Positions 752 to 23,179 of a DNA stretch of 33,869 bases are shown here, piece by piece. Location of the stretch: NCBI GenBank assembly GCA_902593075.1, contig CACJHA010000015.1:1-33869 (forward strand). The letters run 5' to 3'. Position numbers and translations under genes: made by a program. This DNA comes from an uncultured Bacteroidota bacterium. GTDB lineage: Bacteria; Bacteroidota; Bacteroidia; Flavobacteriales; Flavobacteriaceae. Under the pieces are notes generated by a model that saw only the letters and a list, made by a program, of their open reading frames with translations, searched no databases and had not been told where the DNA came from. Each line of letters starts with the position of its first letter. Positions within the stretch are counted from its first letter, which is position 1.

Positions 752-2359
752 TTATCTGTATCCATTGTTCGTTGGGTCCGAATCCAACAACACTGGATTC
801 GTAAGTACCTCATTCAAAGGAATTGGATACTTTACATGTTTGGGCTGAATATTTGTTGCAGCACCTTCTGCATGTTTAGTAACCTTTGTATTTCTAACTG
901 TTTCCAAAAGTATTCCCCATCTAATTAAATCTTGCTTTCTATGCCCTTCTGCAAAGAGTTCGTATTTTCTTTCGTCATACATTTTCACTCTAAATTCTGC
1001 TTGAGAAAGACCACTCCACGGGCTGTCTGGTTCAAATGCTCTTTCACGAACTTTATTTACATATTGATATGCATTGTCGGGTCCATTAAGTTCATTTTCA
1101 CTCTCTGCGGCCATTAGATAAATATCCGCAAGCCTTATAAGAACAATATTTTCAGACTTAGCATTTCTTGGTTTGTCAATATTTAAGTTCATTAATTTAC
1201 CTATATAAACAAATTTTAATTGAATCCCTTCGTAATACTCCATAAAAGTTGCATCGTATCTGAGGTCTCCAGCTTCCCAATTGCTTTGTTTTCCAATATC
1301 AGGACAAGCTATACCTGCACCAAATCCGGTAAAGGACTGGTTATTTGCAGCAAGTGCAGCATTCAATGCATTTTTATCTCCTTTATTTTTAGGATTATCT
1401 TTAGCACGAGGATTGTACTCCTCAATCCAAAGATTGGTTTGTAAATTTCCACTGTTAATTGCACCGGTAGTATTTAAATGATTTGTTCCAAGAGCAGCGT
1501 CCCCGGCAAAGTCAACCCATAGAATATGTTCATTCTTTACCTCGTTATCAAGGGTTGTTTTATCATACGCATAGACATCTGCAAAATCATCCATTAATGT
1601 GTGAGGTGAGTTATTAATTATATCCACGCACTCAGCTAGACAAGAAGACCACTCTTTATCAAATAAATGAAATTTGGCTTTTAATGCAGCTGCCGCCCAC
1701 TTTGTCATTCTACCTAGGTCACCACCAGAATATGCGTCTGGTAAATAACTTTTAGCAAGAGATAGATCTTCCTTCATTCGTGTTCTTATCTCGCTCATTG
1801 GAGTTCGTGGAAGAACAGAAAGTTCATCCGTCCCCAATTCATCGGTAAAAAATGGAACATCTCCATAGAAACGGGTTAGATCATAGTAAGCCATCGCTCT
1901 TAACACATATAATTCTCCTATAAGCTGATTTTTTTCCTCTACAGTTAGTGCTTCTGCAGTTGAAATATTGGCAATAGCAGAATTTGCATTTCTTATAAGT
2001 AGATAAAACTCTTTCCAAGCCGCGTGCAAATCTCCATTCCCCTCCGTGTAAAGGTAATTATAGGGAGTTTGAATAACTTTTCTTTGAGGACAAACCTCGT
2101 CACTCCCGTACTGAACAGCGCCCCTGTAATTTCTGTTTCGGTATAGGTTTTGGTTATTTAATGTAGCATAAACACCATTTACTGCCATTTGAGCTTCATT
2201 AAGATTGTTATAGAAACCAGTTGGTGACAATCCACTTCTTAAATCTTCTTCTAAGAAATCTTTTTCACAACTAGATAAGACGATTAATAAAACTAGAATC
2301 ATCCAATTTATCGTATATGTTTTATAATTTTTCATTGCTTTATTTTTTCTATTTTTCAT
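752..2359 (-). CDS. susD: SusD/RagB-family nutrient-binding outer-membrane lipoprotein
   Basis: Lipobox LIVLSSCEKDF; SusD-like body (FYNNLNEAQMAVNGVYATLNN, LRAMAYYDLTRFYGDVPFFT, ENIVLIRLADIYLMAAES, ERKYELFAEGHRKQDLIRWG). Follows susC with an 11-nt gap. Real start may be the internal Met (MKNYKT, about 2335). Confidence 0.97.
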   Translation of the reverse strand: MKNRKNKAMKNYKTYTINWMILVLLIVLSSCEKDFLEEDLRSGLSPTGFYNNLNEAQMAVNGVYATLNNQNLYRNRNYRGAVQYGSDEVCPQRKVIQTPYNYLYTEGNGDLHAAWKEFYLLIRNANSAIANISTAEALTVEEKNQLIGELYVLRAMAYYDLTRFYGDVPFFTDELGTDELSVLPRTPMSEIRTRMKEDLSLAKSYLPDAYSGGDLGRMTKWAAAALKAKFHLFDKEWSSCLAECVDIINNSPHTLMDDFADVYAYDKTTLDNEVKNEHILWVDFAGDAALGTNHLNTTGAINSGNLQTNLWIEEYNPRAKDNPKNKGDKNALNAALAANNQSFTGFGAGIACPDIGKQSNWEAGDLRYDATFMEYYEGIQLKFVYIGKLMNLNIDKPRNAKSENIVLIRLADIYLMAAESENELNGPDNAYQYVNKVRERAFEPDSPWSGLSQAEFRVKMYDERKYELFAEGHRKQDLIRWGILLETVRNTKVTKHAEGAATNIQPKHVKYPIPLNEVLTNPVLLDSDPTNNGYR

Positions 2360-2370
2360 AATGATATTTT

Positions 2371-5300
2371 TTATAAGGTTAGATTAAATCCAAGTGCAAA
2401 TGAGGAGTTGTAAGGGTATCCTCCGTTAGCCACACCTTGTGCCAAACCGTCACCATAATTACTTTGCTCAGGGTCCCCATGGGTAAATTTAGTGAAGAGC
2501 AATAAGTTATTACCTGTTAAATAAACACTGGCTCTTTTCATTCCAGGGATATCTAAATCATATGTTAGAGTTACGTTTTTTAATCTTAAGAAAGAACCAT
2601 CTTGATACGAGACATCACTTCGCTGCTGGTAGTTTCCGAAACTTGAACCAGCTCTAGGAATGTCTGAGTTTTGATTTGAAGTAGTCCACCTATCCTTTAC
2701 AATTGGCAACAAATTACTTCTTGGGTCTCTTCCAAAATACCCTAGATGATAAGCTGCATTTAAAATCTCATTCCCATAAGATCCATGGAAAAAGAAATCA
2801 AGAGTAAAATCTTTATAGGTTAGTGTATTTCTTAAACCTCCGTAAAAATCTGGATTTGGATCTCCATGTACAACAAAATCAAGTTGATTAATTGCACCAT
2901 TCCCATCTAAATCAACATATCTAGGTCCTCCTAAAACACTACCTACAACACCATCGGCATCAATTTCAGCAGTGGTTCTATAGGTTCCAAGATACGTAGC
3001 ACCTAGATAAGCAGGTGCAGGATATCCTGGGATTATTCTAATACTTGGCCCTGTTGCTTGACCTGGAGAAGATAAATCAATCCATTCTGCACCGTCACCG
3101 ATTGAAATTACTTTGTTCTTATTTGCAGAAATAGTCAAATTTGTACTCCATGTGAAATCAGGTTTATCAATATTTAATGAATTAATGGTAAACTCAAACC
3201 CTTTATTTTCTATCTCACCAATATTTTCCAACCTGGTCTCTCCAGCTGTTCCTGGTATGGGTCTGTTGAGTAATAAATCTTTGGTCCTTTTATTGTAATA
3301 ATCTAGTTCCAAAGAGTATCTATTATTTAAAAACCCAACCTCTAATCCAATATCAGTTTGGGTTGTTGTTTCCCAATCTAAATTTGAGCTGGCTAAGTTT
3401 TCTAACAATACTGCATTGGAAACTTGATTATTTAAAAAAGTTACATAAGGGGTAAATCTTGACAGAGAGTTGTATGCTGGTACACCTTGTTCACCAACAA
3501 TACCGTAACTTGCTCTTAATTTTAGATTGCTTATGTAATCAACACTTTGCATAAAACTTTCCTGACCAATTCGCCAAGCTGCGCCAACAGATGGGAAAAA
3601 AGCATATTTATTGCCTTCTTCAAAAACCGAGGAACCATCTCTTCTTCCAACAAGGGTAAGTAAGTATTTGTCTTTGTAAGAGTAATTTATTCTTCCCAAA
3701 ATGGATTCAAATGTTCTTTTTTCATAGTTACTTGACACTGCATTTTGATTTGGATCAGAACCTAGAGCAAGATTGTTGAATGTAACTACGTCATTTACAA
3801 AACCATAGGCCCCTGATCTAGAAGACTCAAATGTGGTAATTTGAGATGTGTATCCAGCAAGGACTTTCAAAGAGTGTTCGTTAAACTCCTTGACGTAAGT
3901 AATCGTATTTTCATTTAATATATCTCTGCTATTTCTTGAAATAATACTAGCCTCACCATCTTGACCTTTTGCAACTCTATCTGGCAAGATTGTGGAAAAG
4001 TATTGGTTTCTTTTACTAAAATCAAGTCCTAACCCAATTGTAGATCTAAGTGTAAGTCCAGGAATAATATCATATTCAAAAAATGCATTGGTCAATAGAT
4101 TTGTAGTTAATGTATGATCAATCCTTTCATTTACATCTGCTAACGGATTTCGAAAAGGTGTATTTGCCACGGGATTTACACCATTATAAGTGCCATCGCT
4201 ATTGTAAACTTCTAAAAAAGGAGGCATTGCGTTTTGAACCTCTTGCCAGTTAACTTTGTTGTTTTCGATTTTTCTATCGGATAAGTTAAGTCTAAACCCA
4301 GTTCTAATTTTTTCATTAACATCAAAATCCATATTAGCTCTAAGAGTATACCTATTAAGACCTGATGATTCAATTATAGATTGTTCAGACCATCTATTTA
4401 AAGACACATAATAGTTGGATTTTTCAGAATTACCACTGAGTGTTATGTCGGTATTATTAACCTGTCCGTCTCTTGTTACCAAATCTACCCAATTTGTATT
4501 AGGAATAGTAGCTAAATCAAAAAGAGGGTCGATAGATGGATCATTTTCTCCATAACCACTAGCTCCATAAACCAAAGTTTCTGCCTCATTCCAGTAATTT
4601 GCAAAATCAGTAGAATTTAAATACTGAGGAGGATTTGCTATACTACTAAAACTTGTGTAATGATTTATTGACACATCAACATCTCCAGATTTTGCAGACT
4701 TCCCATTTTTAGTTTGAATTAAAATCACACCAGCAGCTCCTCTAGTTCCGTAAAGGGCCAGAGAACTCGCATCTTTTAAAACCTCGATGGATCGAATATC
4801 ATTAACGTTAATGTTTTGAAGATTAAAATCGGTCCCGGCAATAAAACCATCAATTACAAAAAGTGGGTTGTTATTACCTTGAATTGAACTTAATCCTCTA
4901 ATACGAATTGTAGGAGCAGATGATGGATCTCCATCAGGAGCAGTAACTTGAAGGCCTGCTGCTCTACCTTGAAGAAGATTGCTGACACTTGAAGCAGGCT
5001 GGTTTGACAAAGCATCCCCAGATACTTTTGCAATAGATGAAACCAGATCTTTCTTTCTGGTTGTTCCGTAACCCGTTATAATAATTTCCTCAAGTGATCC
5101 TTCCTCAGGGGAAAGAGATACATTAAAACTATCCCCATTAGATACATCAATTGACTGGTCGCCATAACCAACAAATGAGATGGTTAAAATGGCATCATCA
5201 TTTTCTAATTGAATAGAAAAATTACCGTCAAAGTCAGTTGTTGTTCCGTTATCGGTTCCTTGTTCTATAATAGTTGCTCCTGGGAGAGGAACTCCTTCAG

Positions 5301-5736
5301 AGTCAACCACTACACCGGTTACACTTCTTTGAATATTTTCAATCAAATCTTCCACCTTTTCAGCAACTGGATTTGAAACAACTTTTTTAAGAAAGACCAA
5401 ATTTTCACTTATTTGGTATTCTATTAAATTATTAAAAAGTGCACTGATTGTTTCCTCGATATTCTTTTTTTCTAATGATATTGATACCTTTTGATTGAAG
5501 TTGTAAATACTACTATCGAAAATAAATCTCAGTTTTGTGTTAGCTTCTATCTCATCCAATACATCAATAATTGAGGTGTCCTCAACGCTAATTGTAATTT
5601 CTGTTTGAGAATAAACATTACTGCTTGCGAAAGAATTAAATATAAAAGTAATTCCAAGAATTAATGAAAAAATAAAATTCCTTGCACGCAATCTTTTTTT
5701 CTGGTCGCGTTGAACGCTATTGCTATTTAAATTCAT
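2371..5736 (-). CDS. susC: SusC/RagA-family TonB-linked outer-membrane transporter with N-terminal STN (secretin/TonB short) domain
   Basis: STN-like TEITISVEDTSIIDVLDEIEANTKLRFIFDSS; carboxypeptidase-D regulatory-like domain VTGVVVDSEGVPLPGATIIEQGTDNGTTTDFDGNFSI; plug IEVLKDASSLALYGTRGAAGVILIQTK; C-terminal beta-barrel. Confidence 0.97.
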   Translation of the reverse strand: MNLNSNSVQRDQKKRLRARNFIFSLILGITFIFNSFASSNVYSQTEITISVEDTSIIDVLDEIEANTKLRFIFDSSIYNFNQKVSISLEKKNIEETISALFNNLIEYQISENLVFLKKVVSNPVAEKVEDLIENIQRSVTGVVVDSEGVPLPGATIIEQGTDNGTTTDFDGNFSIQLENDDAILTISFVGYGDQSIDVSNGDSFNVSLSPEEGSLEEIIITGYGTTRKKDLVSSIAKVSGDALSNQPASSVSNLLQGRAAGLQVTAPDGDPSSAPTIRIRGLSSIQGNNNPLFVIDGFIAGTDFNLQNINVNDIRSIEVLKDASSLALYGTRGAAGVILIQTKNGKSAKSGDVDVSINHYTSFSSIANPPQYLNSTDFANYWNEAETLVYGASGYGENDPSIDPLFDLATIPNTNWVDLVTRDGQVNNTDITLSGNSEKSNYYVSLNRWSEQSIIESSGLNRYTLRANMDFDVNEKIRTGFRLNLSDRKIENNKVNWQEVQNAMPPFLEVYNSDGTYNGVNPVANTPFRNPLADVNERIDHTLTTNLLTNAFFEYDIIPGLTLRSTIGLGLDFSKRNQYFSTILPDRVAKGQDGEASIISRNSRDILNENTITYVKEFNEHSLKVLAGYTSQITTFESSRSGAYGFVNDVVTFNNLALGSDPNQNAVSSNYEKRTFESILGRINYSYKDKYLLTLVGRRDGSSVFEEGNKYAFFPSVGAAWRIGQESFMQSVDYISNLKLRASYGIVGEQGVPAYNSLSRFTPYVTFLNNQVSNAVLLENLASSNLDWETTTQTDIGLEVGFLNNRYSLELDYYNKRTKDLLLNRPIPGTAGETRLENIGEIENKGFEFTINSLNIDKPDFTWSTNLTISANKNKVISIGDGAEWIDLSSPGQATGPSIRIIPGYPAPAYLGATYLGTYRTTAEIDADGVVGSVLGGPRYVDLDGNGAINQLDFVVHGDPNPDFYGGLRNTLTYKDFTLDFFFHGSYGNEILNAAYHLGYFGRDPRSNLLPIVKDRWTTSNQNSDIPRAGSSFGNYQQRSDVSYQDGSFLRLKNVTLTYDLDIPGMKRASVYLTGNNLLLFTKFTHGDPEQSNYGDGLAQGVANGGYPYNSSFALGFNLTL

Positions 5737-5780
5737 AAATTTTTCATGTTTGGTTATTAATAATTTTTTATTTATTTAGT

Positions 5781-6929
5781 TTATTTAATTATAATTTTAT
5801 TGTTGAACTTTTGATATTTAATATTATAAACTTCTTTTAAATATCCCATAACTTCATCGATTGATTCTTCTTCAACCACAATTGTGGCATTAAAAAAATT
5901 ATCTGATAGCTTTTTATTGTCGTTCGTAATAATTACGTTATACAACCTTTCAAGCTTTAAAATCATAGAGTCTATATTTTCATCTCTAAAAATAACTCTA
6001 CCATCAATCCAAGAGGTGTAAATTTTAGTGTTTACTTTCGAAATTTCTATTTCTTCGTTGGACTGATTTACGTTAGCTCTAAAACCCGGTTTTAAGCTAA
6101 CGATTTTTTGGTTATCTGAAAGCCCCTTCACTCCAAGACTTCCATCTACAAGTATTATTTCTGAAAAACTGTCTTCTTTATAACTTTTAACGTTAAATTG
6201 TGTTCCATAAACCTCTGTAATAGCATCGTTAGACACTACTTTAAAAATGTCTTTATTATTTTCAGAGATATTAAAAAAAGCTTCTCCATCTAAATAAACT
6301 TTTCTCTCCATCCCATTTATAAATTGAACAGGGAATTTTAAAGAGGATCCCGAATTTAGATTTACAATTGAGCCATCTGATAATTCAACATCAAATCTTT
6401 TGCCGTATGGTACAGTCAAGGTATTGTAAGAGAGTTTTTTAATATCTTTTTTTTGATTAAAAACTATTTTTTTTGATTCTTTTTTTATTACAATTTCGTC
6501 ATCTATTTGAATTAGTTTATCATCTAAATTCTCTAAAACAATTTGATTGCCATTAGAGGTTTGTAGAGTGACTTTATTTGGATCAAGCACCACCTTGTTT
6601 TCATATGTTGCCCCCTTGCGTATTTGATTATAGTAACCTACCGCAATAGAAATTGAGATTATGGCTGCATATTTAAAAATATTTTTAAAACTAAAATTTA
6701 GCTCCCTCTTTGTCTGCTGAGAATTTATTCTATCTTTAATTTCTTTAATTATTTTTTCTTGATTGGCTCTACTCATAGCTAAGTTTGAGAAATGATTTAT
6801 AGATATATAATCTTTAAAGACTTTTAAATTATTTTTTTTTTCAATCCATTTAAGAAGAAAATTTAGCTCCTCGACACTTGATTCGCAGTTAAGAAAATTA
6901 ATAATCTTCCTCTCAATTAATGGTGACAT
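5781..6929 (-). CDS. FecR-family anti-sigma factor (DUF4974-type C-terminus)
   Basis: FecR core TVPYGKRFDVELSDGSIVNLNSGSSLKFPVQFINGMERKVYLDGEAFFNIS...VYGTQFNVKSY; one predicted TM (FKYAAIISISIAVGYY); divergent to an ECF sigma gene. Confidence 0.95.
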   Translation of the reverse strand: MSPLIERKIINFLNCESSVEELNFLLKWIEKKNNLKVFKDYISINHFSNLAMSRANQEKIIKEIKDRINSQQTKRELNFSFKNIFKYAAIISISIAVGYYNQIRKGATYENKVVLDPNKVTLQTSNGNQIVLENLDDKLIQIDDEIVIKKESKKIVFNQKKDIKKLSYNTLTVPYGKRFDVELSDGSIVNLNSGSSLKFPVQFINGMERKVYLDGEAFFNISENNKDIFKVVSNDAITEVYGTQFNVKSYKEDSFSEIILVDGSLGVKGLSDNQKIVSLKPGFRANVNQSNEEIEISKVNTKIYTSWIDGRVIFRDENIDSMILKLERLYNVIITNDNKKLSDNFFNATIVVEEESIDEVMGYLKEVYNIKYQKFNNKIIIK

Positions 6930-6936
6930 ATTATTA

Positions 6937-6957
6937 TTACGATTTTAAAAATCATAA
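6937..6957. promoter_or_regulatory. Imperfect 21-nt palindrome in the divergent fecR/sigma intergenic region
   Basis: TTACGATTTTAAAAATCATAA: inner 13 nt GATTTT-A-AAAATC is perfect; one mismatched pair (C6940/A6954), then TTA/TAA pairs. Confidence 0.35.
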
Positions 6958-7026
6958 CCCTAATAGAATTAATTATATAGAACAAAAATTTTGAAACATT
7001 AATTTTTATATATAGTTTAACTTTAT

Positions 7027-7548
7027 ATGTCTGATTATAAACTTTCTAGAGATCTTAAAAATGGTGATGAAAAAGCATACATTAAAGCCGTAAGTTTGTA
7101 TAGTGACAAGTTGTTTGCTTACGCATTAAGCTTGTCTGGTGATCATGCTACTGCTGACGATTTAGTTCAGGAGGTTTTTATAAAGTTGTATGAATACAGA
7201 AAAAAAATTAACCCCAATTACTCACTCCAGTCATTTCTATACAAGTCTGTTTATCATAAATTCATTGATCTTTATTACAAGAATAAATCGAGATCTAAAT
7301 TACACGACTCTTATTTAAAATTATTGGATCAAATTGTAAACGATACCCCTATAGAAGAATTTGAAATAAAACTTAAAAAAATCATCGCTAGTATTGAAAA
7401 GCTGCCTTCAAAAACAAAAGAGATATTTAAACTAAGCAAGCAAAGTGGTTTAACAAATAAAGAAATATCGAAATTTTTAGATATTTCAATTAAAACAGTT
7501 GAATTTCATATAACGAAATCATATAAATTTTTAAGAACCCAAATTTGA
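7027..7548 (+). CDS. ECF RNA polymerase sigma factor (sigma-70 family, Bacteroidetes type)
   Basis: Region 2 DKLFAYALSLSGDHATADDLVQEVFIKLYEYRKKI; region 4 IEKLPSKTKEIFKLSKQSGLTNKEISKFLDISIKTVEFHITKSYKFLR. Confidence 0.96.
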   Translation: MSDYKLSRDLKNGDEKAYIKAVSLYSDKLFAYALSLSGDHATADDLVQEVFIKLYEYRKKINPNYSLQSFLYKSVYHKFIDLYYKNKSRSKLHDSYLKLLDQIVNDTPIEEFEIKLKKIIASIEKLPSKTKEIFKLSKQSGLTNKEISKFLDISIKTVEFHITKSYKFLRTQI

Positions 7549-7549
7549 T

Positions 7550-9163
7550 ATGAAATATTTCTACTTCACTATTTCTATTCTGGCCTTTATTATTAGCTGT
7601 GACAAAAAAAAAGAATCTAAAATCAAACCAAACATTTTATTTATAATGTCTGATGATCACGCATATCAAGCTATTAGTGCTTACAGCAATTCTCTTACCC
7701 AAACACCTAACATTGACAGAATTGCCAATGAGGGAATGATATTCAGTAATGCTTGTGTTACAAATTCTATATGTGCCCCGTCAAGAGCTGTAATCTTAAC
7801 AGGCAAACATAGCCATTTAAACGGGAAAATTGATAACCATGCAAAATTTGATGACACACAGTTAACTTTCCCTCAGCTTTTTCAAGAAAATGGTTACCAA
7901 ACAGCGATGTTTGGGAAACTTCATTTTGGGAACAATCCTAAAGGAGTTGACGATTTTTTAATTCTTCCAGGACAAGGGGACTACATAAATCCAAGATTTA
8001 TTGGTAAAGAAAAGGACACCATAATTACAGGATATGTTACAGATATTATCACTGACTTGACTTTAAATTGGTTTAAAAATAAAAGAGATAATAGTAAACC
8101 ATTTTTAATGATGTATTTGCATAAAGCACCGCATAGAGCATGGTGGCCAAGTCCAGAGAAGTTTGCCGAATTTTATGAAAAAAGATTCCCTGAACCCAAA
8201 ACCTTATTTGATGATTATAAAGGAAGAGGGGCTGCAGCAAAAAGTGCTGAAATGAATATTTTCAATCATATGCAATACATGCATGACAGTAAAGTAAGGC
8301 CATCAACTATTGAAGAGATGGGTAAAGTTGAGCCAGAAATTCAATATGTAACTGGCAAAGGAAAGATAGTAAAGCCAACAGCTCAAAGATTCTATGGGCC
8401 TTTTAATAGAGCCAATGATGAGCAAAAAAGAAAATATAATATTACGTTAGACAAAATAAGTAAAGACTTCAAAGAAAATTGGCCAAAAATGAATGATAAA
8501 GAAAAAATGAAATGGAAATATCAAAGATATATGCAAGATTATTTGGCTACCATTTCTTCCGTTGATGACAATGTGGGTAGGGTTTTGGATTATCTGAGGG
8601 AAAGTGGTTTAGAAGACAATACCATTGTGGTTTATACATCTGACCAGGGGTTTTATCTTGGAGAACACGGATGGTTTGATAAACGATTTATCTATGATGA
8701 ATCTTTTAAAACTCCCTTAATAATTAAATGGCCTAATGTTATTAAGCCTGGAACTACGAGCGAGGAAATGGTTCAGAACTTAGATTTTGCTCAAACTTTT
8801 CTAGAAGCGGCCATGATTGATGTTCCTGATGATATGCAGGGTGAAAGTCTTGTTCCATTGTTAAAAGGAGAATCTGATCAATGGAATAGAGAAGCAGTTT
8901 ATTATCATTATTATGAATATCCATCTGTTCATATGGTAAAAAGACATTACGGTATAGTAAGTAAAGAGTTCAAACTAGTTCATTTTTACAATGATATAGA
9001 TGAATGGGAATTGTACGATCGCATTAAAGATCCAGACGAGATGAACAATGTTTATAATAGCCCCGATTATAAAAAAGTTGTAGAAAAGCTTACACAAGAT
9101 TTAAAGGAAATGCGAAAAAAGTATAAAGATTCAGATTTACTGGATAAAAGTTTCATTTACTAA
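7550..9163 (+). CDS. Sulfatase, predicted lipoprotein, heparan/N-sulfoglucosamine-type S1 family
   Basis: Lipobox FIISC; PNILFIMSDDH; formylglycine motif C75-A-P-S-R; SDQGFYLGEHGWFDKRFIYDESFKTPLIIKWP. Confidence 0.95.
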   Translation: MKYFYFTISILAFIISCDKKKESKIKPNILFIMSDDHAYQAISAYSNSLTQTPNIDRIANEGMIFSNACVTNSICAPSRAVILTGKHSHLNGKIDNHAKFDDTQLTFPQLFQENGYQTAMFGKLHFGNNPKGVDDFLILPGQGDYINPRFIGKEKDTIITGYVTDIITDLTLNWFKNKRDNSKPFLMMYLHKAPHRAWWPSPEKFAEFYEKRFPEPKTLFDDYKGRGAAAKSAEMNIFNHMQYMHDSKVRPSTIEEMGKVEPEIQYVTGKGKIVKPTAQRFYGPFNRANDEQKRKYNITLDKISKDFKENWPKMNDKEKMKWKYQRYMQDYLATISSVDDNVGRVLDYLRESGLEDNTIVVYTSDQGFYLGEHGWFDKRFIYDESFKTPLIIKWPNVIKPGTTSEEMVQNLDFAQTFLEAAMIDVPDDMQGESLVPLLKGESDQWNREAVYYHYYEYPSVHMVKRHYGIVSKEFKLVHFYNDIDEWELYDRIKDPDEMNNVYNSPDYKKVVEKLTQDLKEMRKKYKDSDLLDKSFIY

Positions 9164-9173
9164 AAAATAATAT

Positions 9174-10847
9174 TTAACGATCTAAAGGCTGGTAAGAATT
9201 AGTTATTATTTTAAGTTGATTTGAATTACCCGTCATTTCCCAACTTCCAAGAGAGACGGGAATATTGCCTATACTATTTATGGAATCAAAAAAATTTTTT
9301 ATTGTAAAATTGCTTTCATCACTTTTTGCATTTTCCATCATCATTTCTTCAATTAAATATTTACCCGTTATGTAACTTGTCCCGTACCCGGGTTGTCTTA
9401 GATAAAGGTGCTGCTCGAAAAGTAAAAGTTCTTTTTCGGTCTTCATCCATCCCCTGGGTGTATATTCAGAGTGTATCTTACCAGCTTCTTCCATACTCAT
9501 AATATTAGCATGTGCATATAAAGATCCTAATCCTCTTGCAGCCCGCTGGGCAATTAAAATATATACGATTTCTCTTGCTCTTGGATTTTCATCGTATAGA
9601 CCTGCGTGCATGAAAAATTCCTCTACAGCGGTTGCTAATCCCTCGTTTCTAGAATCAAAAATATTATAAAGAAGTGCTTTTTCCCTTATAGGATTTACAT
9701 GAGGTTCCACTTCCATTCTTTCAAGTTCAAACCAATGATAAAAATGAGAAAAAAGGGGTTTTGGATCTAAGTGCGCTGTAATCCAAAAAAAATTTCTTTT
9801 ATCAGCTGGAATATAATCTCCTAAATGTGGTTGTAGCGATCTTAAAAAGTATTCTTTTACCGTCACTATTTGATTTTGATCCAAAAAATTTATTAATTCC
9901 TTTGCGGCATTTTCAGCTAATTTTTTATAGCTAGATGGTGAGTCAGCAGGTTTAATTTGAGGTAATTTTCTGTTTCGATGTTCTTCTAATTTTAATGACG
10001 ACCAAGCTCTTGCTAATTCCCTTTTCAACAAAAACACCTCATCCTCCCAAGTCATAGGAACTAGGTGAACATTTTGCTGATACCATGTATAATTTTCTTT
10101 TCCAATTCCAGATGGGCCGTTCTTTTTAAAAGCCTCTTTTTTAAGCCATTTTACAAAATTATCTGTGGAGTCTTTTGCATTTTTAATTTGCATAACCAGT
10201 TTTTTGTCTTTGGCTACTCCCGGCTTTAAGTTTAAGTCCTCTAAAATTTGACTTTGTTTTTCAATATCTCTAATCCCAGCTATCCATAAATCCCTCGCAT
10301 TTCCTGTGAGGTTTATTTTGGCTTGTTTATTAAACTTAGGAATCAATTCTAAAGAAGAAAGAAGTTTAATTCTGTCTTTTTTATTTAATGGGAAATTGTA
10401 TTGCCATAGCTCAACAGTAAAATGAGGAGTAGGGCCTTCGTGTGCAGGAACATCACTCTTGTAAGTCCAAATTGATTTGTAAAATGCTGGATCTCTTTCC
10501 CAGGGTTTTAAGATTTTATAGTTAAATAAATATCCGTTCATTTCTGCCCACAATAAATACCAATCTACTTTATCTTTAACTGGCCATAAATCAATTGAAA
10601 ATGACTCAAGTTTATTTCTTATTTTTTTATATTGCTTAAAACGAACATCAAATGTGTTTTTGGAATAGTCAGGGACTCCCTCTTTTAGTGGTGGTATTTC
10701 AAAATTCCTCCACTCCTTAAATAGTTCAATAAGATTATGGTTTACTTTATCCTTTTTTTCTTGGGCATTCGCAAAGAATAAAAACAAGGAACAAAATAAA
10801 TAAAATACCGCTTCTGAAGTTTTTATTTTTAGATTTGAATTTATCAT
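9174..10847 (-). CDS. Divergent DUF885-like secreted protein (putative peptidase relative)
   Basis: Signal peptide ending FANAQ; C-terminal segment NEGLATAVEEFFMHAGLYDENPRAREIVYILIAQRAARGLGSLYAHANIMSMEEAGKIH...RQPGYGTSYITGKYLIEEMM resembles the DUF885 C-terminal region. Assignment is from pattern recognition only. Confidence 0.6.
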   Translation of the reverse strand: MINSNLKIKTSEAVFYLFCSLFLFFANAQEKKDKVNHNLIELFKEWRNFEIPPLKEGVPDYSKNTFDVRFKQYKKIRNKLESFSIDLWPVKDKVDWYLLWAEMNGYLFNYKILKPWERDPAFYKSIWTYKSDVPAHEGPTPHFTVELWQYNFPLNKKDRIKLLSSLELIPKFNKQAKINLTGNARDLWIAGIRDIEKQSQILEDLNLKPGVAKDKKLVMQIKNAKDSTDNFVKWLKKEAFKKNGPSGIGKENYTWYQQNVHLVPMTWEDEVFLLKRELARAWSSLKLEEHRNRKLPQIKPADSPSSYKKLAENAAKELINFLDQNQIVTVKEYFLRSLQPHLGDYIPADKRNFFWITAHLDPKPLFSHFYHWFELERMEVEPHVNPIREKALLYNIFDSRNEGLATAVEEFFMHAGLYDENPRAREIVYILIAQRAARGLGSLYAHANIMSMEEAGKIHSEYTPRGWMKTEKELLLFEQHLYLRQPGYGTSYITGKYLIEEMMMENAKSDESNFTIKNFFDSINSIGNIPVSLGSWEMTGNSNQLKIITNSYQPLDR

Positions 10848-10902: not shown

Positions 10903-13900
10903 ATGGTCTCTTTTAATTTATTTGTAAAACGTTGCTTTTTTATTTTATTAATTTTTTTTCCTTTCTCAATTAAAGCACAAAAACTTGACACTGATAAAAT
11001 AAAAAATCTAAATATCAGAAATATTGGACCGGCAAACATGAGTGGGCGAATTACAACCATTGACGCCGTAAATGAAAATGCAAAAATTATATATGTTGGA
11101 GCAGCTTCGGGAGGGGTTTGGAAATCTGAAAACGGGGGTTCAAGCTGGACTCCAATATTTGATGAACAACCTACACAGAATATTGGTTCTCTTGCCATTT
11201 CACAATCAAATTCAAGTGTGATTTGGGTTGGAACTGGTGAGGGAAATCCTCGAAATTCTATGAATTTAGGAATGGGGATATTTAAATCAGAAGATGCAGG
11301 GAAAAGTTGGGTTCAAATGGGGCTAGAAAAAACCAAGACAATACATAGAATTATAATCCATCCTACAAATGAGGACGTAATTTATGTTGGAGCTATGGGG
11401 GATCCGTTTACAAAAAATTCGCATCGCGGTTTATACAAAACATCCAATGGAGGTAAAAATTGGAAACAAATTCTTTATACTAACAGCTCATCAGGAGTTG
11501 CCGATTTAGTCATGGATCCTAAAAATCCAAAAAAGCTGTTTGCTGCTATGTATGATCATCAAAGGACACCATATTATTTTACTTCCGGTGGACCAGGCTC
11601 AGGTTTATACACAAGTGAAGACGCGGGTGCTACGTGGAGAAAAATTAGTCACGAAAATGGTCTACCTAAAGGAGATCTTGGTAGAATTGGAATAGCAATA
11701 GCTCCAAGTAATCCTAATAGGATTTATGCTAAAATAGAGGCAAAAAAAAATGCTATATATAGAAGTGATGATGGAGGGAAATACTGGATTAAAATAAATG
11801 ATAACCCAAAATTTACAAATAACAGACCTTTTTATTTTCAAGACTTGGAAGTTGATTCTAAGGATCAAGAAAGGGTCTATAATATTTATCAGCCTTTAAC
11901 TGTTAGCTATGATGGAGGAAAAACCTTCGATTCTATACCAATGATACCAGCTGATGAAACTAAAGGAATACATGCGGATTTTCACTCTATTTGGATTAAT
12001 CCTAAAGATCCAACAAATTTTATTATTGGTGGAGATGGTGGCCTTGGAATTACAAGAGATCACGGGAAAAGTTGGTATTTCCCTGAAACCATTCCTGTAG
12101 CTCAATTTTACCAAATTAATGTTGATTACGATACTCCATTTAATGTTTACGGAGGGATGCAAGACAATGGGAATTGGGCTGGTCCGGCTTACACTTGGAA
12201 GAGAGGAGGAATTCGAACTCTTTACTGGCAGTATCTAGTAGGGGGTGACGGCTTTTATATTTCCCCAGATAAAGATAACTCTCGTTTTGGTTACGGCACA
12301 TCACAGAATGGAGACTTGTATCGATACGACAAAATAACCGGATACTATCAAAGTATTTCTCCTAATGCAAAAGATGTAAAAACTCCTTTAAGATTTAACT
12401 GGAATGCAGGTTTTTCAAAAGATCCTTTTGACAATAAAGGAATTTATTACGGTTCACAATTTTTACATAAATCAAAAGATAAAGGGGCTAATTGGGAAAC
12501 AATATCTCCTGACTTAACTACAAATAAAAGCGAATACCAAAAAAGTGATTATGGAGGATTAACTCTTGACATATCTGGAGCAGAAAATTACACCAGTATT
12601 CTGTCTATTGCTCCATCTCATTTAGATGAAAATATAATTTGGGTTGGGACAGACGATGGTCAAGTACAACTTACTAAAAACGGGGGTAGAACTTGGGAAA
12701 ATTTAACATCAAAAATTAAAAGTCTTCCCAATGAGGCCTGGATCGCTAGAATTCATGCCTCTAGATACGAAAAAGGTACGGCTTGGGTGGTAGTAAATAA
12801 TTACAGAAAAGGAGACTATAATCCTTATTTGTTTAAAACGTCAGACTATGGTAAAAATTGGGAGTCTGTACTAGATGGAAAAAATATTAAAGGATATAGT
12901 TTATCTTTCATTCAAGATCCAATTGAAAAAAAACTTCTTTTTTTAGGCACTGAAAATGGTTTATGGATTAGCATTGACGAGGGCAATAACTGGATACAAT
13001 TCAAAAATGGATTCCCGTCAGTATCCACAATGGATCTTGTTATTCAGGAAAATGAATCTGCTCTTGTTATTGGTACTTTTGGAAGAGCCATTTGGGTATT
13101 AGATGATTTACTAAGCTTACGTGATATTATAAATAAGAACTCGAAAAGCAAAATTATTGCTCTATCTAAAAATCCAGCAATACAAGTGAAGGGAATTTTC
13201 ATAGCGCCTCCTGGAAATATTTGGACGGGATTTCATACTACATATGAGGGGGAAAACAGAGAGTTTCAAAAAATCAAAATTCCCTTTTATTTAAATGACA
13301 AAGTTTCTGAAATGGATTCTATTTATTCAATAATTAAAAATGACGAAAATCAACCTATTCAAAGATTAGTCAAAAATAATTTAGTTGAAGGTCTAAATTA
13401 TCTGGTTTGGAAATTAGATGAAAAAATGGTTACACTCCCAGGCTCTTGGATAAACCAGGAATCAAGAGGTATACCTGTTCTCCCTGGAATGTACACAGCT
13501 GAATTAAAATATAAAAATGAAACTATTCGAAGTGAGATCAAGGTAATTCAAGACCCAAGATTTGAATTAGATATAGATGTAGACGAAAGTTTATTTTACT
13601 ATCAGAAAAGAGCTGTAGAACAAGTAAAACGACTCTCAAATATCTTGAATGAACTAGACAGATTTATTAAAATTATTGAAGCAAGTTCATTTTCAGAAAA
13701 AAGAAAAAAACAGTTACTTATTGAAATCAGAAAAATTCAACTAAAAGCAAGAGAGCAGTTAGAAAATCGACAATTGGGGGCATGGAAAAGTAATAAAATT
13801 ACTGCTTACTCAGTGTTAAATAATACGATCAAGGTTTCTAGAGCTCGATTAAGAAAACCTTCAACTCAAGATGAGTCTTTACTTTCTATGGCCAAAGAAT

Positions 13901-13965
13901 TGATAGATGAAATTGAAGAGGATATTATAGATTTTAAAAGCAAAAAAATAAAGGAATTAAATTAA
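10903..13965 (+). CDS. Large secreted BNR/Asp-box (VPS10/sortilin-like) beta-propeller protein, 'glycosyl hydrolase BNR repeat' family
   Basis: N-terminal signal peptide; about 11 Asp-box-like motifs (e.g. SENGGSSW, SEDAGKSW, SNGGKNW, SEDAGATW, SDDGGKYW, SYDGGKTF, TRDHGKSW, SKDKGANW, TKNGGRTW, TSDYGKNW, SIDEGNNW); charged helical C-terminus. Confidence 0.88.
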   Translation: MVSFNLFVKRCFFILLIFFPFSIKAQKLDTDKIKNLNIRNIGPANMSGRITTIDAVNENAKIIYVGAASGGVWKSENGGSSWTPIFDEQPTQNIGSLAISQSNSSVIWVGTGEGNPRNSMNLGMGIFKSEDAGKSWVQMGLEKTKTIHRIIIHPTNEDVIYVGAMGDPFTKNSHRGLYKTSNGGKNWKQILYTNSSSGVADLVMDPKNPKKLFAAMYDHQRTPYYFTSGGPGSGLYTSEDAGATWRKISHENGLPKGDLGRIGIAIAPSNPNRIYAKIEAKKNAIYRSDDGGKYWIKINDNPKFTNNRPFYFQDLEVDSKDQERVYNIYQPLTVSYDGGKTFDSIPMIPADETKGIHADFHSIWINPKDPTNFIIGGDGGLGITRDHGKSWYFPETIPVAQFYQINVDYDTPFNVYGGMQDNGNWAGPAYTWKRGGIRTLYWQYLVGGDGFYISPDKDNSRFGYGTSQNGDLYRYDKITGYYQSISPNAKDVKTPLRFNWNAGFSKDPFDNKGIYYGSQFLHKSKDKGANWETISPDLTTNKSEYQKSDYGGLTLDISGAENYTSILSIAPSHLDENIIWVGTDDGQVQLTKNGGRTWENLTSKIKSLPNEAWIARIHASRYEKGTAWVVVNNYRKGDYNPYLFKTSDYGKNWESVLDGKNIKGYSLSFIQDPIEKKLLFLGTENGLWISIDEGNNWIQFKNGFPSVSTMDLVIQENESALVIGTFGRAIWVLDDLLSLRDIINKNSKSKIIALSKNPAIQVKGIFIAPPGNIWTGFHTTYEGENREFQKIKIPFYLNDKVSEMDSIYSIIKNDENQPIQRLVKNNLVEGLNYLVWKLDEKMVTLPGSWINQESRGIPVLPGMYTAELKYKNETIRSEIKVIQDPRFELDIDVDESLFYYQKRAVEQVKRLSNILNELDRFIKIIEASSFSEKRKKQLLIEIRKIQLKAREQLENRQLGAWKSNKITAYSVLNNTIKVSRARLRKPSTQDESLLSMAKELIDEIEEDIIDFKSKKIKELN

Positions 13966-13969
13966 CAGT

Positions 13970-15421
13970 TTAATCCAAAACCGCCTCTGCCTCTATTTCG
14001 ACTTTATATCCATCACCTACAAGTTTAGATTCAACAAGAGTGTTAGCAGGGTTGATGTTTTTGAATCTTTCTCCGTGTACCTTCGCTACAGCTTCCCAGT
14101 CATTTATATTGTTAACAAAAACTCTTGTTCGGATAACATTTTCTAATTTTCCTCCCAAAGAAGTGATTGCAGATTCTAATTTGTCAATCACAAAATGTGT
14201 TTGTGCAATAACATCATTACCTCCTATTATCATATTTCGATGTGTAGCTGTTGTTCCCGAAACGAAAATAGATTTTCCTTTCTTTACTGCACGGCTATAA
14301 CCTGCTAGGGACTCCCACTCTGTACCACTAAATACATGGAATCTGTTTTTTGATGCTTTTATTTCTTTAAATACGCTTGGTATATTTTCCAAATGATGGC
14401 TTAAATCACCAGAAGCTGTTAAAAAAGGAGGTGTACGATACTCATCTCCACAATCTCCAGGAATTGGCTTCAAGATTTCAATTACTTCTTCAATTTTATT
14501 TGTATCATCCTTATCTAAAAAAATATCTAGTAAATTTTTGTGGTCCTCAATATGAGAACTTTCTCCAATTCTAGCTCCAATAATAACTGAAGAAACATTC
14601 TTATTATTTAATACAAATTTACTTGCAATATTAGCTATAGAGGTTTTATGTTTTAGGGATATTTCATTGAGAGTAGTCAGTAAATTTTGGAATGGTTTCC
14701 ATCCTCCTGATGCCTTAATAAATCTATAATATTTCATTTGGGACCAAGTCTTTAATTCTTCTTCTTTTGGATCATGAGAACCTAGCCATCGATTGGATAA
14801 AAATCCGCCAAGAACAGTTCCGTATGCTAACAAACGAACGCTATATTGATCGCAAACTGCTTTCATTTTACCTTTAGCTCTCTGGTCGACTATTGAATGT
14901 GAAATCTGATTACTAACAATCGGAATACCTGTAGCGCAGGCAATTCTTAAGTGTTTAGCGTCAAAGTTTGTAACACCAATATTTTTAATAAGTCCTTCTT
15001 CCTTTAAATCTTTCAAATATATAAGTGCATCTATCCAATATGGGTTAGTGTAGGTCCATGTATGAAACTGTAATAAATCAATACTTTTTTGATTCATTCT
15101 TTCAAGAGCATTCTTCACGGCTTTGTAAACCGTCTTTTTATCAATAGGCCCTGGTTTTGGAACCCACTTTGTAAGTAGTTTAATGGAATCACGGTTAGGG
15201 TGATTGTTTTTGCAGATTCCTGCAATAATTTCACTTGACCCATAATGATCAGCCATATCAAATATTGAAAATCCATTATTAACATAGAGATTTAAAGATT
15301 CAGCTTTTTTATTTAAATCTAAATTCTTATTGTTTCTTTCCATATCAGCAATTTGCCATAATCCAATAATAATTTTTGGGAGAGAAAGTTTAGGAGTTAT
15401 ATTAAAAGTTTTGCTTGTCAT
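13970..15421 (-). CDS. Aldo/keto reductase fused to C-terminal RidA/YjgF-like domain
   Basis: AKR tetrad motifs D55/Y60 (FDMADHYGSSE), K85 (KLLTKW), H120 (DLLQFHTW). From residue about 361: FSGTEWESLAGYSRAVKKGKSIFVSGTTATH...QTHFVIDKLESAITSLGGKLENVIRTRVFVNNINDWEAVAKVHGERF...YKVEIEAEAVLD, a RidA-family pattern. Confidence 0.9.
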   Translation of the reverse strand: MTSKTFNITPKLSLPKIIIGLWQIADMERNNKNLDLNKKAESLNLYVNNGFSIFDMADHYGSSEIIAGICKNNHPNRDSIKLLTKWVPKPGPIDKKTVYKAVKNALERMNQKSIDLLQFHTWTYTNPYWIDALIYLKDLKEEGLIKNIGVTNFDAKHLRIACATGIPIVSNQISHSIVDQRAKGKMKAVCDQYSVRLLAYGTVLGGFLSNRWLGSHDPKEEELKTWSQMKYYRFIKASGGWKPFQNLLTTLNEISLKHKTSIANIASKFVLNNKNVSSVIIGARIGESSHIEDHKNLLDIFLDKDDTNKIEEVIEILKPIPGDCGDEYRTPPFLTASGDLSHHLENIPSVFKEIKASKNRFHVFSGTEWESLAGYSRAVKKGKSIFVSGTTATHRNMIIGGNDVIAQTHFVIDKLESAITSLGGKLENVIRTRVFVNNINDWEAVAKVHGERFKNINPANTLVESKLVGDGYKVEIEAEAVLD

Positions 15422-16918
15422 TTATTCCGAAGGTAACTTTTTAAATCTTTTTTTATGCGTTAATTTATTCCATCGAAATATAAAAATAAAACTTGCTATT
15501 ACCATCACAATAATCCAAACATAAGTAGAGTGAAAATACCAAGCATCTAGTTCCTTGGTAATATCTTTATAAAGGTGAATAAATAATAGGAGTCCAAGAG
15601 AAACAATTCCCGCCCATGCAATTATAAGCTGCATCTTTCTGTTTTTAATAATGTTTATTTCTAAATACAATTCTGGATTGTGTTTCCTAATTGTAAGAAT
15701 TGTAATACACATAAGTATAAAATTAACTAGCATTGATGTTACCATTATATCTATCCCCAAAAAAAAATCACCTGCCAAATCAGATCCTATGACTCCGATG
15801 CTTGAAACAATTCCAGAAAAAATCAGAGCTACAACTGGAGTATTCTTTTTTGGATGAATAAAAGTTAAACTTTTTGACACAATCCCATCTTTAGCCCATG
15901 TAAAAATGAGACGAGACACTGAAAGTAACATAGCTGGTATATCGTTGATTAAAGCAATGGTGGCACCCAGAATAATTAGAGAATCTATTCCACTTGGAAT
16001 AACGTAACTCAACAACCCAGGAGCAGTTATATCTCTTAATTGAGCCTGCTCTGAAATATAACTCCAAGGAACAATTTTATAAACAGATGCTGTAAAAAGA
16101 AAATAAAATAGTCCAACCCCTAGGATAGATATTAATATGGCAAGGGGTAAATTTTTTTTAGGTCTTAGTGATTCACTTCCAGTTTGGGCAATTGCATCAA
16201 AGCCAATAAAACTAGAAAACAAAATTGCTACAGCTGAAAAAAATGAATACCATTCAAATTCGGATTTAACCTTCATGTTGTGAATTTCTCCAGTTTTTTC
16301 TTTTAAAGCATAAACGAAATCAGACACATCATAAAAAAAAGGTGATAAAATAACAATACTTCCTAATAGAAAAATAATAATAACCATCGGAATCAATAAA
16401 TTTTCGTAGGCTTTGATACCTCTAATATTTAAATAAACAAAGAACCAGATAAAACTTAGTGCCAAAAAAACACGAATCAATGATATGTCTAATAAGTTAG
16501 ATAAATGAAAAAGCTCATAACTAAATGCAATGTCTCTTAAGAAAGGAATTGAAATATAAGATATCACACCGATAACAATCGATAGTCCAAACCATTGGGA
16601 AAAGCTAGCTATAAACCCCAAATAAGGATTCAAGCCTCTACTTGCATACAAATAGCTTCCGCCCGCTCTTGGCATTGCAGACGAAAGAATAGCGTATGCT
16701 AATCCTGCCAAAAGAGCTGGAATTATAGCTGATATGAAAGCCCAAAGCACGTAAGGGCCTATTGAAGGAACACTTCTGTAAATCATAAAAGGAACAACAT
16801 TTATTGAAGCCCCTACCATAGAGGACACTCCTGTAGCAACTACAGTGATTAATCCCATTTGACGAATTAATTTTGGTTTATTTGACATTAACTTTGAGTT
16901 ATAATGTTTTTTAAACAC
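15422..16918 (-). CDS. APC-superfamily amino acid permease
   Basis: About 12 hydrophobic segments; MGLITVVATGVSSMVGASINVVPF and AIPALLAGLAYAILSSAMPRAGGSYLYASRGLNPYLGF are APC hallmarks. Likely true start is MSNKPK at 16888. Confidence 0.93.
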   Translation of the reverse strand: MFKKHYNSKLMSNKPKLIRQMGLITVVATGVSSMVGASINVVPFMIYRSVPSIGPYVLWAFISAIIPALLAGLAYAILSSAMPRAGGSYLYASRGLNPYLGFIASFSQWFGLSIVIGVISYISIPFLRDIAFSYELFHLSNLLDISLIRVFLALSFIWFFVYLNIRGIKAYENLLIPMVIIIFLLGSIVILSPFFYDVSDFVYALKEKTGEIHNMKVKSEFEWYSFFSAVAILFSSFIGFDAIAQTGSESLRPKKNLPLAILISILGVGLFYFLFTASVYKIVPWSYISEQAQLRDITAPGLLSYVIPSGIDSLIILGATIALINDIPAMLLSVSRLIFTWAKDGIVSKSLTFIHPKKNTPVVALIFSGIVSSIGVIGSDLAGDFFLGIDIMVTSMLVNFILMCITILTIRKHNPELYLEINIIKNRKMQLIIAWAGIVSLGLLLFIHLYKDITKELDAWYFHSTYVWIIVMVIASFIFIFRWNKLTHKKRFKKLPSE

Positions 16919-21925: not shown

Positions 21926-23179
21926 ATGAATAAAAGAGAATTTATTCAAAAATTTGGTTTTCTAGGTTTAGCAACATATACTCTACCAGATGATATTATT
22001 TACAGTAAGAATAAATTCGATTTACCTGCTTATAAGACAGAATATGATTTGTGGGAAATCGTTAGAAGTCATTACTCCCTAAAACCAGATTATATAAATT
22101 TAGAAAACGGATACTATAATATCATTCCCAATCCAACTCTCTATAAATACATTGAACATGTTAAAACTATAAATTTTGAAGGTTCCTATTATATGAGAAA
22201 TAGTCTTGAAGATGATAATCTAAAACTTAGAAAAAGGATTTCAGATTGGTTGTCGTGTGATAAAGAAAATGTTATAATTACTAGAAATACAACTGAGTCA
22301 TTGGATTTAATAATAGGAGGTTATCCCTGGGAAAAAGGAGACGAGGCAATTTATGCAAAGCAGGACTATGGTTCAATGAAATTGATGTTTGAACAGGTTT
22401 CTAAAAAATATAACATCAAGACCAAAGTGATTTCAATCCCTAATCATCCATCATCAGATGAGGAAATTGTTCATCTATATGAAAGCCAAATTTCAAAAAA
22501 AACTAAATTAATCATGGTCTGTCATATGATCAACATAACTGGCCAAGTACTTCCTATAAAAAAAATTTGTGAGATGGCTCACAGCTATGGTGTTGAGGTA
22601 ATGGTAGATGGTGCTCACTGTATTGGGCATTTTGATTTTTCTATTGAAGATCTGAATTGTGATTATTATGGTTCAAGTCTGCATAAGTGGTTGTCCGCTC
22701 CACTAGGCGCAGGATTACTTTATATTAAAGAAAAACATATTTCAAAAATTTGGCCTTTGCTTGCCGGGCATTCAAGTGATTTCAATGGGATAAAAAGATT
22801 AAATCATTTGGGAACCAATCCTGTTCACATACATTTAGCAATAAACAATGCTCTTGATTACATCGATTGGATAGGAATCAAAAGAAAAGAAAAAAGACTC
22901 AAAGAACTACAAAACCATTGGCTTCAAAATTTGAAAAATGTTTCAAATGTTGAAATAAATACTCCCTTATCATTTTCAAAAAGCTTTGGTATTGGCAACA
23001 TAGGAATTAAAGATATGTCTCCCAAAATTATGGCTGAACAACTTTTAAAAAAGTTTAACATCTTTACTGTTGCTATCGACTATGCAAACGTAAAAGGCTG
23101 TAGGATTACTCCAAACATTTATAATTCGATCGATGAGATTGAAATTTTTATTGACGCCGTAAGAAAATTAGCTTCTTGA
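21926..23179 (+). CDS. Class V aminotransferase-fold PLP enzyme (isopenicillin-N epimerase-like) with Tat-like N-terminus
   Basis: EGSYYMRNSLEDDNLKLRKRISDWL; VIITRNTTESLDLIIGG; VMVDGAHCIGHFDF; PLP-lysine motif SSLHKWLSAPLGAGLLYI; N-terminus MNKREFIQKFGFLGLA. Confidence 0.92.
   Translation: MNKREFIQKFGFLGLATYTLPDDIIYSKNKFDLPAYKTEYDLWEIVRSHYSLKPDYINLENGYYNIIPNPTLYKYIEHVKTINFEGSYYMRNSLEDDNLKLRKRISDWLSCDKENVIITRNTTESLDLIIGGYPWEKGDEAIYAKQDYGSMKLMFEQVSKKYNIKTKVISIPNHPSSDEEIVHLYESQISKKTKLIMVCHMINITGQVLPIKKICEMAHSYGVEVMVDGAHCIGHFDFSIEDLNCDYYGSSLHKWLSAPLGAGLLYIKEKHISKIWPLLAGHSSDFNGIKRLNHLGTNPVHIHLAINNALDYIDWIGIKRKEKRLKELQNHWLQNLKNVSNVEINTPLSFSKSFGIGNIGIKDMSPKIMAEQLLKKFNIFTVAIDYANVKGCRITPNIYNSIDEIEIFIDAVRKLAS

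Follow-up and report, generated by a model that had tools for sequence, protein, structure and literature searches.

A conserved aldo/keto reductase–Rid fusion with an invariant asparagine at the RidA arginine position, encoded beside an importer gene

Positions 13970..15421 (minus strand) of contig CACJHA010000015.1, a 33,869-nucleotide stretch of DNA from an uncultured bacterium of the Flavobacteriaceae (GenBank assembly GCA_902593075.1; the whole stretch is referred to here as the window), encode a 483-residue protein in which an aldo/keto reductase (AKR) is joined to a C-terminal domain of the Rid (YjgF/YER057c/UK114) family. Comparison with homologues indicates that this fusion is real, widespread, conserved and of single origin. 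We infer, with a probability of about one half, that the protein is a bifunctional enzyme which is served by a dedicated importer and acts on an imported amine or amino-acid-like compound; the substrate class, catalysis by the Rid half and contact between the two sites are parts of that proposal.

The open reading frame (ORF) runs from an ATG at 15421–15419 to a stop codon at 13972–13970 (483 codons) in a genome of 1.39 Mb that is incomplete (65% complete). A first-pass annotation of the window had described an ORF of this length as an AKR with a C-terminal Rid domain; its coordinates were right, we add the strand, and Pfam places both domains with scores well over the gathering thresholds. 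The AKR domain (residues 16–314; 14480..15376, minus strand) matches Aldo_ket_red (PF00248) over profile positions 1–290 of 291, with an E value of 3.9e-53 and a score of 180.8 bits where the cut-off is 24. The Rid domain (residues 360–481; 13979..14344, minus strand) is delimited by Ribonuc_L-PSP (PF01042; residues 370–481, E value 2.8e-23, 82.6 bits against a cut-off of 27.3) and by a phmmer search of the PDB, which aligned 3i7t (Rv2704) to residues 360–481 with an E value of 2.5e-20. Among the NCBIfam models, TIGR00004 (Rid family detoxifying hydrolase) scored 57.9 bits, under its cut-off of 106.25, and the equivalogs for the AKR half (YdjG, DkgA and others) scored far under theirs. AlphaFold confidently models the monomer as two domains (pTM 0.91, mean pLDDT 90), with a pLDDT of about 90 in the AKR domain. 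The best PDB fold matches are all AKRs; the 50 matches listed are solely AKRs or AKR-like Kv beta subunits, and none of them matches the Rid half. By these comparisons the N-terminal half is a member of the aldo/keto reductase superfamily, with predicted NAD(P)(H)-dependent activity as a carbonyl reductase or dehydrogenase.

A scan of GTDB genomes with patterns from the AKR half gave at least 562 confirmed relatives, not all of which were checked for both domains. We aligned 83 full-length sequences, namely the 77 cleanly translated members of the best 80 of these relatives and six others; counts of loci given below (out of 78 or 80) refer to the loci of the best 80. The first-pass annotation had proposed a search for co-occurrence of the domains and had named homologues split into two genes, a frameshift or an assembly join as findings that would speak against a fusion. 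Both domains are retained in all 83 aligned proteins. Their sources are Bacteroidota, Acidobacteriota, Gemmatimonadota, Marinimicrobia and Gammaproteobacteria, together with metagenome-assembled genomes labelled Chloroflexota and Actinomycetota (the taxon being the label of the assembly only). Further fusions occur on alphaproteobacterial plasmids, where they are 46–48% identical to the window protein, and both domains are likewise retained in the 12 alphaproteobacterial fusions checked. The nearest relatives in the searches are mostly from Flavobacteriaceae; within the genus, one other genome has a full-length fusion (84% identity) and in a second genome the copy is broken by a contig end. 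Matches to a fusion profile (E ≤ 1e-60) are present in 49 of 150 Gemmatimonadota genomes, a count that includes one genome with a stand-alone AKR only (G889) and a few matches that are incomplete or interrupted by an in-frame insertion. In a maximum-likelihood tree the fused Rid domains form one clade (support 100/99) nested in a stand-alone group related to Rv2704; because of this placement, a single fusion event, with the asparagine described below fixed on the same branch, would be the simplest history.

The AKR tetrad, judged apparently intact in the first-pass annotation, lies within AKR motifs and is invariant in the 83 fusions and in the 12/12 alphaproteobacterial fusions checked: Asp55, of the catalytic type (codon 15257..15259), Tyr60 (15242–15244), Lys85 (15167–15169) and His120 (15062–15064), all on the minus strand. 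The best PDB fold matches, such as Tas (1lqa), members of the AKR11 family (1pyf and 1pz1) and YghZ/AKR14A1, share the barrel and the tetrad with the fusion at about 20% sequence identity, whereas the fusion has in addition the conserved C-terminal linker and the Rid domain. The closest AKR family found here is a stand-alone enzyme associated with TIGR04076 proteins (for example L165:3328-4374), which is 30–37% identical. It shares a cluster with the fusion in alphaproteobacteria but has neither Rid domain nor linker and carries the motif FDCADIYTG. In Gemmatimonadota the fusion is present in 20 of the 21 genomes that have this second AKR (hand count; p about 8e-11 by Fisher's test without correction for relatedness). 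Two such stand-alone AKRs in other loci (L146:7011-8051 and L147:7069-8112) have Ser or Ala at the tetrad His (MVQFSW and LVQFAW).

The Rid half lacks the arginine that defines catalytic RidA proteins. In an alignment with five Rid proteins of E. coli (RidA, TdcF, RutC, YoaB and YjgH), residue 460 falls at RidA Arg105 (FPARS in RidA, INPANT here), so that an arginine hidden by misalignment can be rejected. The asparagine noticed in the first pass, including its residue count, is thus correct; its codon (14042..14044) reads AAC on the minus strand. Position 460 is Asn in 83/83 aligned fusions and in the 12/12 alphaproteobacterial fusions checked, with no Arg at the aligned position in any of them. 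The same position is occupied by Arg in the RidA types and by Trp in YjgH; members of the stand-alone sister group have Thr, Ser or Ala there. Other Rid residues are kept: Tyr/Phe at 375, Glu477 (79/83, the remaining four rows being gapped there), Trp442 (83/83) and His394 (81/83). A histidine at position 394 was seen in none of the stand-alone Rid rows of the alignment.

The first-pass suggestion of an Arg-less Rid subgroup is supported and can be made more precise, since the fused domains form a single clade inside the Rv2704-related proteins with Thr, Ser or Ala. Asn460 in all fusions sets them apart from RidA, Rid1, Rid2 and Rid3, which have the catalytic Arg, and also from Rid4 and Rid7, which have Trp at that position (PMC4433059), as does YjgH in our alignment. 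In Rid5 and Rid6 the Arg position is variable while Tyr/Phe and Glu are kept (Niehaus et al., 2015; PMC4433059). The residue pattern of the fusion agrees with that description, the subfamilies being defined by CDD profiles and compared here by description. The functions of the Arg-less Rid4–Rid7 groups have been called mysterious (Niehaus et al., 2015; PMC4433059). The closest Rid relatives are Rv2704 (3i7t, the nearest in the PDB) and the stand-alone Arg-less group, the stand-alone homologues being mostly 41–51% identical. Like the fusion, they have the RTR motif (residues 431–433), keep Tyr/Phe and Glu and lack the RidA Arg; unlike it, they have Thr, Ser or Ala rather than Asn and are without an AKR half or linker. 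RidA, TdcF and RutC belong to the same Pfam family and keep the Glu120-type residue, whereas in every member of the fusion family Arg is replaced by Asn and the domain is joined to an AKR.

The AKR C-terminal tail and the interdomain linker (residues 320–343, IPGDCGDEYRTPPFLTASGDLSHH; 14393..14464, minus strand), as delimited by the 83-fusion alignment and the AlphaFold model, are more conserved than most of the AKR and Rid domains. Gly322, residues 324–329 (Cys324 to Arg329), Pro331, Pro332, residues 334–336 (Leu334 to Ala336), Gly338, Asp339 and His343 are invariant in 83/83 sequences. Residues 322–329 (GDCGDEYR) resemble the C-terminal tail of stand-alone AKRs (GD-Y-ER), and residues 330–343 (xPPFLTASGDLSHH) are confined to the fusions. 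Residues 332–341 have pLDDT values below 50 in the monomer model, which suggests that the linker may be ordered only in an oligomer or with ligand and may contribute to a site.

An APC-family (SLC7/CAT-like) amino-acid permease is encoded directly upstream on the same strand (15422..16918; PF13520, E value 7.3e-39; in the PDB its sequence matches CAT1 and further amino-acid transporters). Its stop codon (15424–15422) abuts the ATG of the fusion with no gap, and by this arrangement the two genes form one operon. Of 78 fusion ORFs, 67 have such a permease gene immediately before them in the same orientation, 52 of these with a gap of −4 to +5 nt; of the other 11, four lie at contig ends and seven have another gene upstream. 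Among seven genomes of the genus the pair is present together (G000, G005 and G006) or both genes are absent (G001–G004, some of which are incomplete), and in Gemmatimonadota the permease is within the cluster in seven of ten loci. At one locus (L212, G893:C1, 5150–8012) a transporter read by eye as AtoE-like abuts the fusion in the usual place of the APC permease. FrlA, itself an APC permease, gave a weak match in the NCBIfam search; an Amadori ketoamine as substrate would be speculation.

In alphaproteobacteria the importer is of a different type. Eleven clusters, on plasmids and chromosomes, combine the fusion with a branched-chain-type ABC importer; in most of them the fusion gene comes after LivM, and in L167, L173 and L186 the gene order is different. 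These clusters also encode a substrate-binding protein (SBP), a TIGR04076 protein and the stand-alone second AKR, and most have a GntR regulator as well; one further locus (L169) has the fusion without the ABC importer/TIGR04076 cluster. The SBP (L165:2043-3308 in Rhizobium sp. SL42, for example) is nearest to Leu/Ile/Val-type binding proteins. For TIGR04076 there was no PDB sequence match, and a literature search gave a passing mention in one paper only. The importers found with the second AKR are of the NhaC or NSS type, as judged from sequence. This uptake cluster (L165:2043-10464 and ten similar ones, with variants at L171, L177, L187, L188 and L192–L194) appears to be undescribed; it ends either in AKR–Rid or in an L-pipecolate-oxidase-like flavoenzyme, and the latter version also has DUF3830 and a DUF4440-like protein.

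Seven related clusters have no fusion and encode a DAO-family flavoenzyme, which adjoins LivM in six of them; in the seventh (L177) a 42%-identical DAO is located after the SBP. The best NCBIfam match of the flavoenzyme is L-pipecolate oxidase, at 296 bits and thus under the 600-bit cut-off. Because the SBPs of the DAO clusters are about 74% identical to that of the reference fusion cluster, the two kinds of cluster probably share the same ligand. Whole-genome searches found the DAO without the fusion in five genomes (G513, G533, G585, G633 and G736) and the fusion without an orthologous DAO in three (G656, G659 and G561). In one Bacteroidota locus (L146), an N-methyltryptophan-oxidase-like member of the DAO family adjoins the second AKR and TIGR04076.

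These observations are consistent with a scheme in which the importer would bring in an amine or amino-acid-like compound and the fusion would act on it in the cytoplasm. The AKR half would carry out NAD(P)(H)-dependent redox chemistry on a C=O or C=N group, the Rid half would take up the imine/enamine or carbonyl form, and the linker would organise the two sites. Asn460, in place of the carboxylate-binding Arg, could be an adaptation to a substrate without a free carboxylate at that spot. AKR–Rid would then do in one protein what the related clusters do with a FAD-dependent secondary-amine oxidase. The coupled handling of an imine or carbonyl suggested in the first pass is plausible, with new backing from the upstream amino-acid-type importer and the amine oxidase swap. 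A precedent in separate proteins is RutC, which deaminates 3-aminoacrylate before RutE/YdfG reduces the product (PMC8113886). In REPI/STORR of opium poppy, a naturally fused protein, the AKR module deals with an unstable imine that its partner makes: the P450 of REPI forms 1,2-dehydroreticuline and the AKR half reduces it (PMC10813097); that protein is eukaryotic and has a P450 partner and no Rid domain. Because of the swap with an oxidase, we slightly favour oxidation by the AKR over reduction after deamination in the manner of RutC and RutE/YdfG. A more specific form of the proposal, which we advance tentatively and regard as rather doubtful, sees AKR–Rid as an NAD(P)-dependent amine dehydrogenase that would contain its own Arg-independent imine hydrolase (using Asn460) and would replace the FAD secondary-amine oxidase without need of oxygen. 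If this is so, we know of no earlier case in which a function has been defined for an Arg-less Rid domain of the Rv2704 type.

Several points weigh against the proposed import and imine chemistry. The DAO clusters are close relatives of one another, five of the DAO genomes carrying 73–81%-identical copies, so the swap may have happened only once; the DAO and the fusion may also perform different steps. The importers of the fusion vary (APC, branched-chain ABC and, in L212, AtoE-like), and because the types differ the ligand is uncertain; an assignment of the substrate from the neighbours was rejected, as no single ligand follows from importers so varied. The R104A variant of RutC is inactive (PMC8113886), and an Arg-less Rid of Y. 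pestis is without RidA function (PMC7221256), so the Rid half may have no deaminase activity. On account of the last two results, the main rival explanation, to which we give a real but minority chance, is a non-catalytic Rid half: a ligand-sensing module that, since Rid domains form trimers, would gather three AKRs, and whose inter-subunit pocket at Asn460 would bind an amino acid or the substrate of the pathway and so regulate or shape the AKR. Such a role is in keeping with the loss of the catalytic Arg without exception, with the lack of any known deaminase activity in Arg-less Rids (PMC4433059; PMC8113886) and with the invariant linker, which has low confidence in the monomer model and could become ordered at an oligomer interface. 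However, Tyr/Phe375, Glu477, His394, Asn460 and Trp442 are near or fully invariant, beyond the needs of a scaffold, and the amine oxidase swap points to imine chemistry.

Carbonyl detoxification is common among AKRs, and the fusion could serve to detoxify reactive carbonyls or imines by reduction rather than act as the catabolic enzyme of one import route. That RidA-family proteins pre-empt imine damage (PMC4433059) fits this alternative, but we consider it unlikely in view of the tight linkage to several kinds of importer, joined in alphaproteobacteria by a binding protein and a GntR regulator, an arrangement typical of uptake and catabolism of a specific substrate. It is very improbable that the halves act on unrelated substrates and that the fusion is a neutral accident: although neither half has a known activity, one ancient fusion extends across several phyla with no split member seen, and its linker is conserved above most of the two domains. 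An artefact of assembly or frameshift that joined two genes, or a chance association, is ruled out for practical purposes by at least 83 independent full-length homologues with 46–84% identity, some of them from complete plasmids.

Downstream of the fusion in the window is a convergent gene for a VPS10/BNR-repeat protein (10903..13965, plus strand; PF15902, E value 5.7e-33), which ends four bases from the fusion stop. A VPS10-like gene is convergent with the fusion in 30 of 80 loci, and its membership of the module is uncertain. This gene separates the permease/fusion pair from one for a DUF885 protein (9174..10847, minus strand; PF05960). A DUF885 gene adjoins the pair on the same strand in 27 of 80 loci, after the fusion in 16 and before the permease in 11. 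The DUF885 protein beside the fusion lacks the HExxPGH-type motif region of other DUF885 members (HWFELER in the window, as against HELFPGH in L147) and retains the EGLAT/EGWAT segment. Elsewhere in the window, 752–9163 looks from its sequence like a polysaccharide-utilisation-type locus, with a SusC/SusD-like pair, a sulfatase and an anti-sigma/ECF sigma pair. Positions 21926–23179 (plus strand) encode a pyridoxal-phosphate-dependent protein of the SufS/PvdN type (SufS, 148.6 bits with a cut-off of 475; PvdN, 120 with a cut-off of 650).

No description of an AKR–Rid fusion was found in the open-access papers searched. Its parts are of known kinds; what is new is their combination, the invariant Asn and the amine oxidase swap. 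The link to transporters, the finding that the fusion arose once, the invariance of the linker and the second AKR go beyond the first-pass annotation. The family is broad, extending over Bacteroidota, Pseudomonadota, Gemmatimonadota, Acidobacteriota and others, yet the annotated records seen say only 'aldo/keto reductase'. In it an Arg-less Rid shares one polypeptide with an enzyme of known chemistry and is encoded in an operon-like pair with an importer, and the alphaproteobacterial binding protein and regulator turn the question of what Arg-less Rids do into a ligand-binding and growth experiment.
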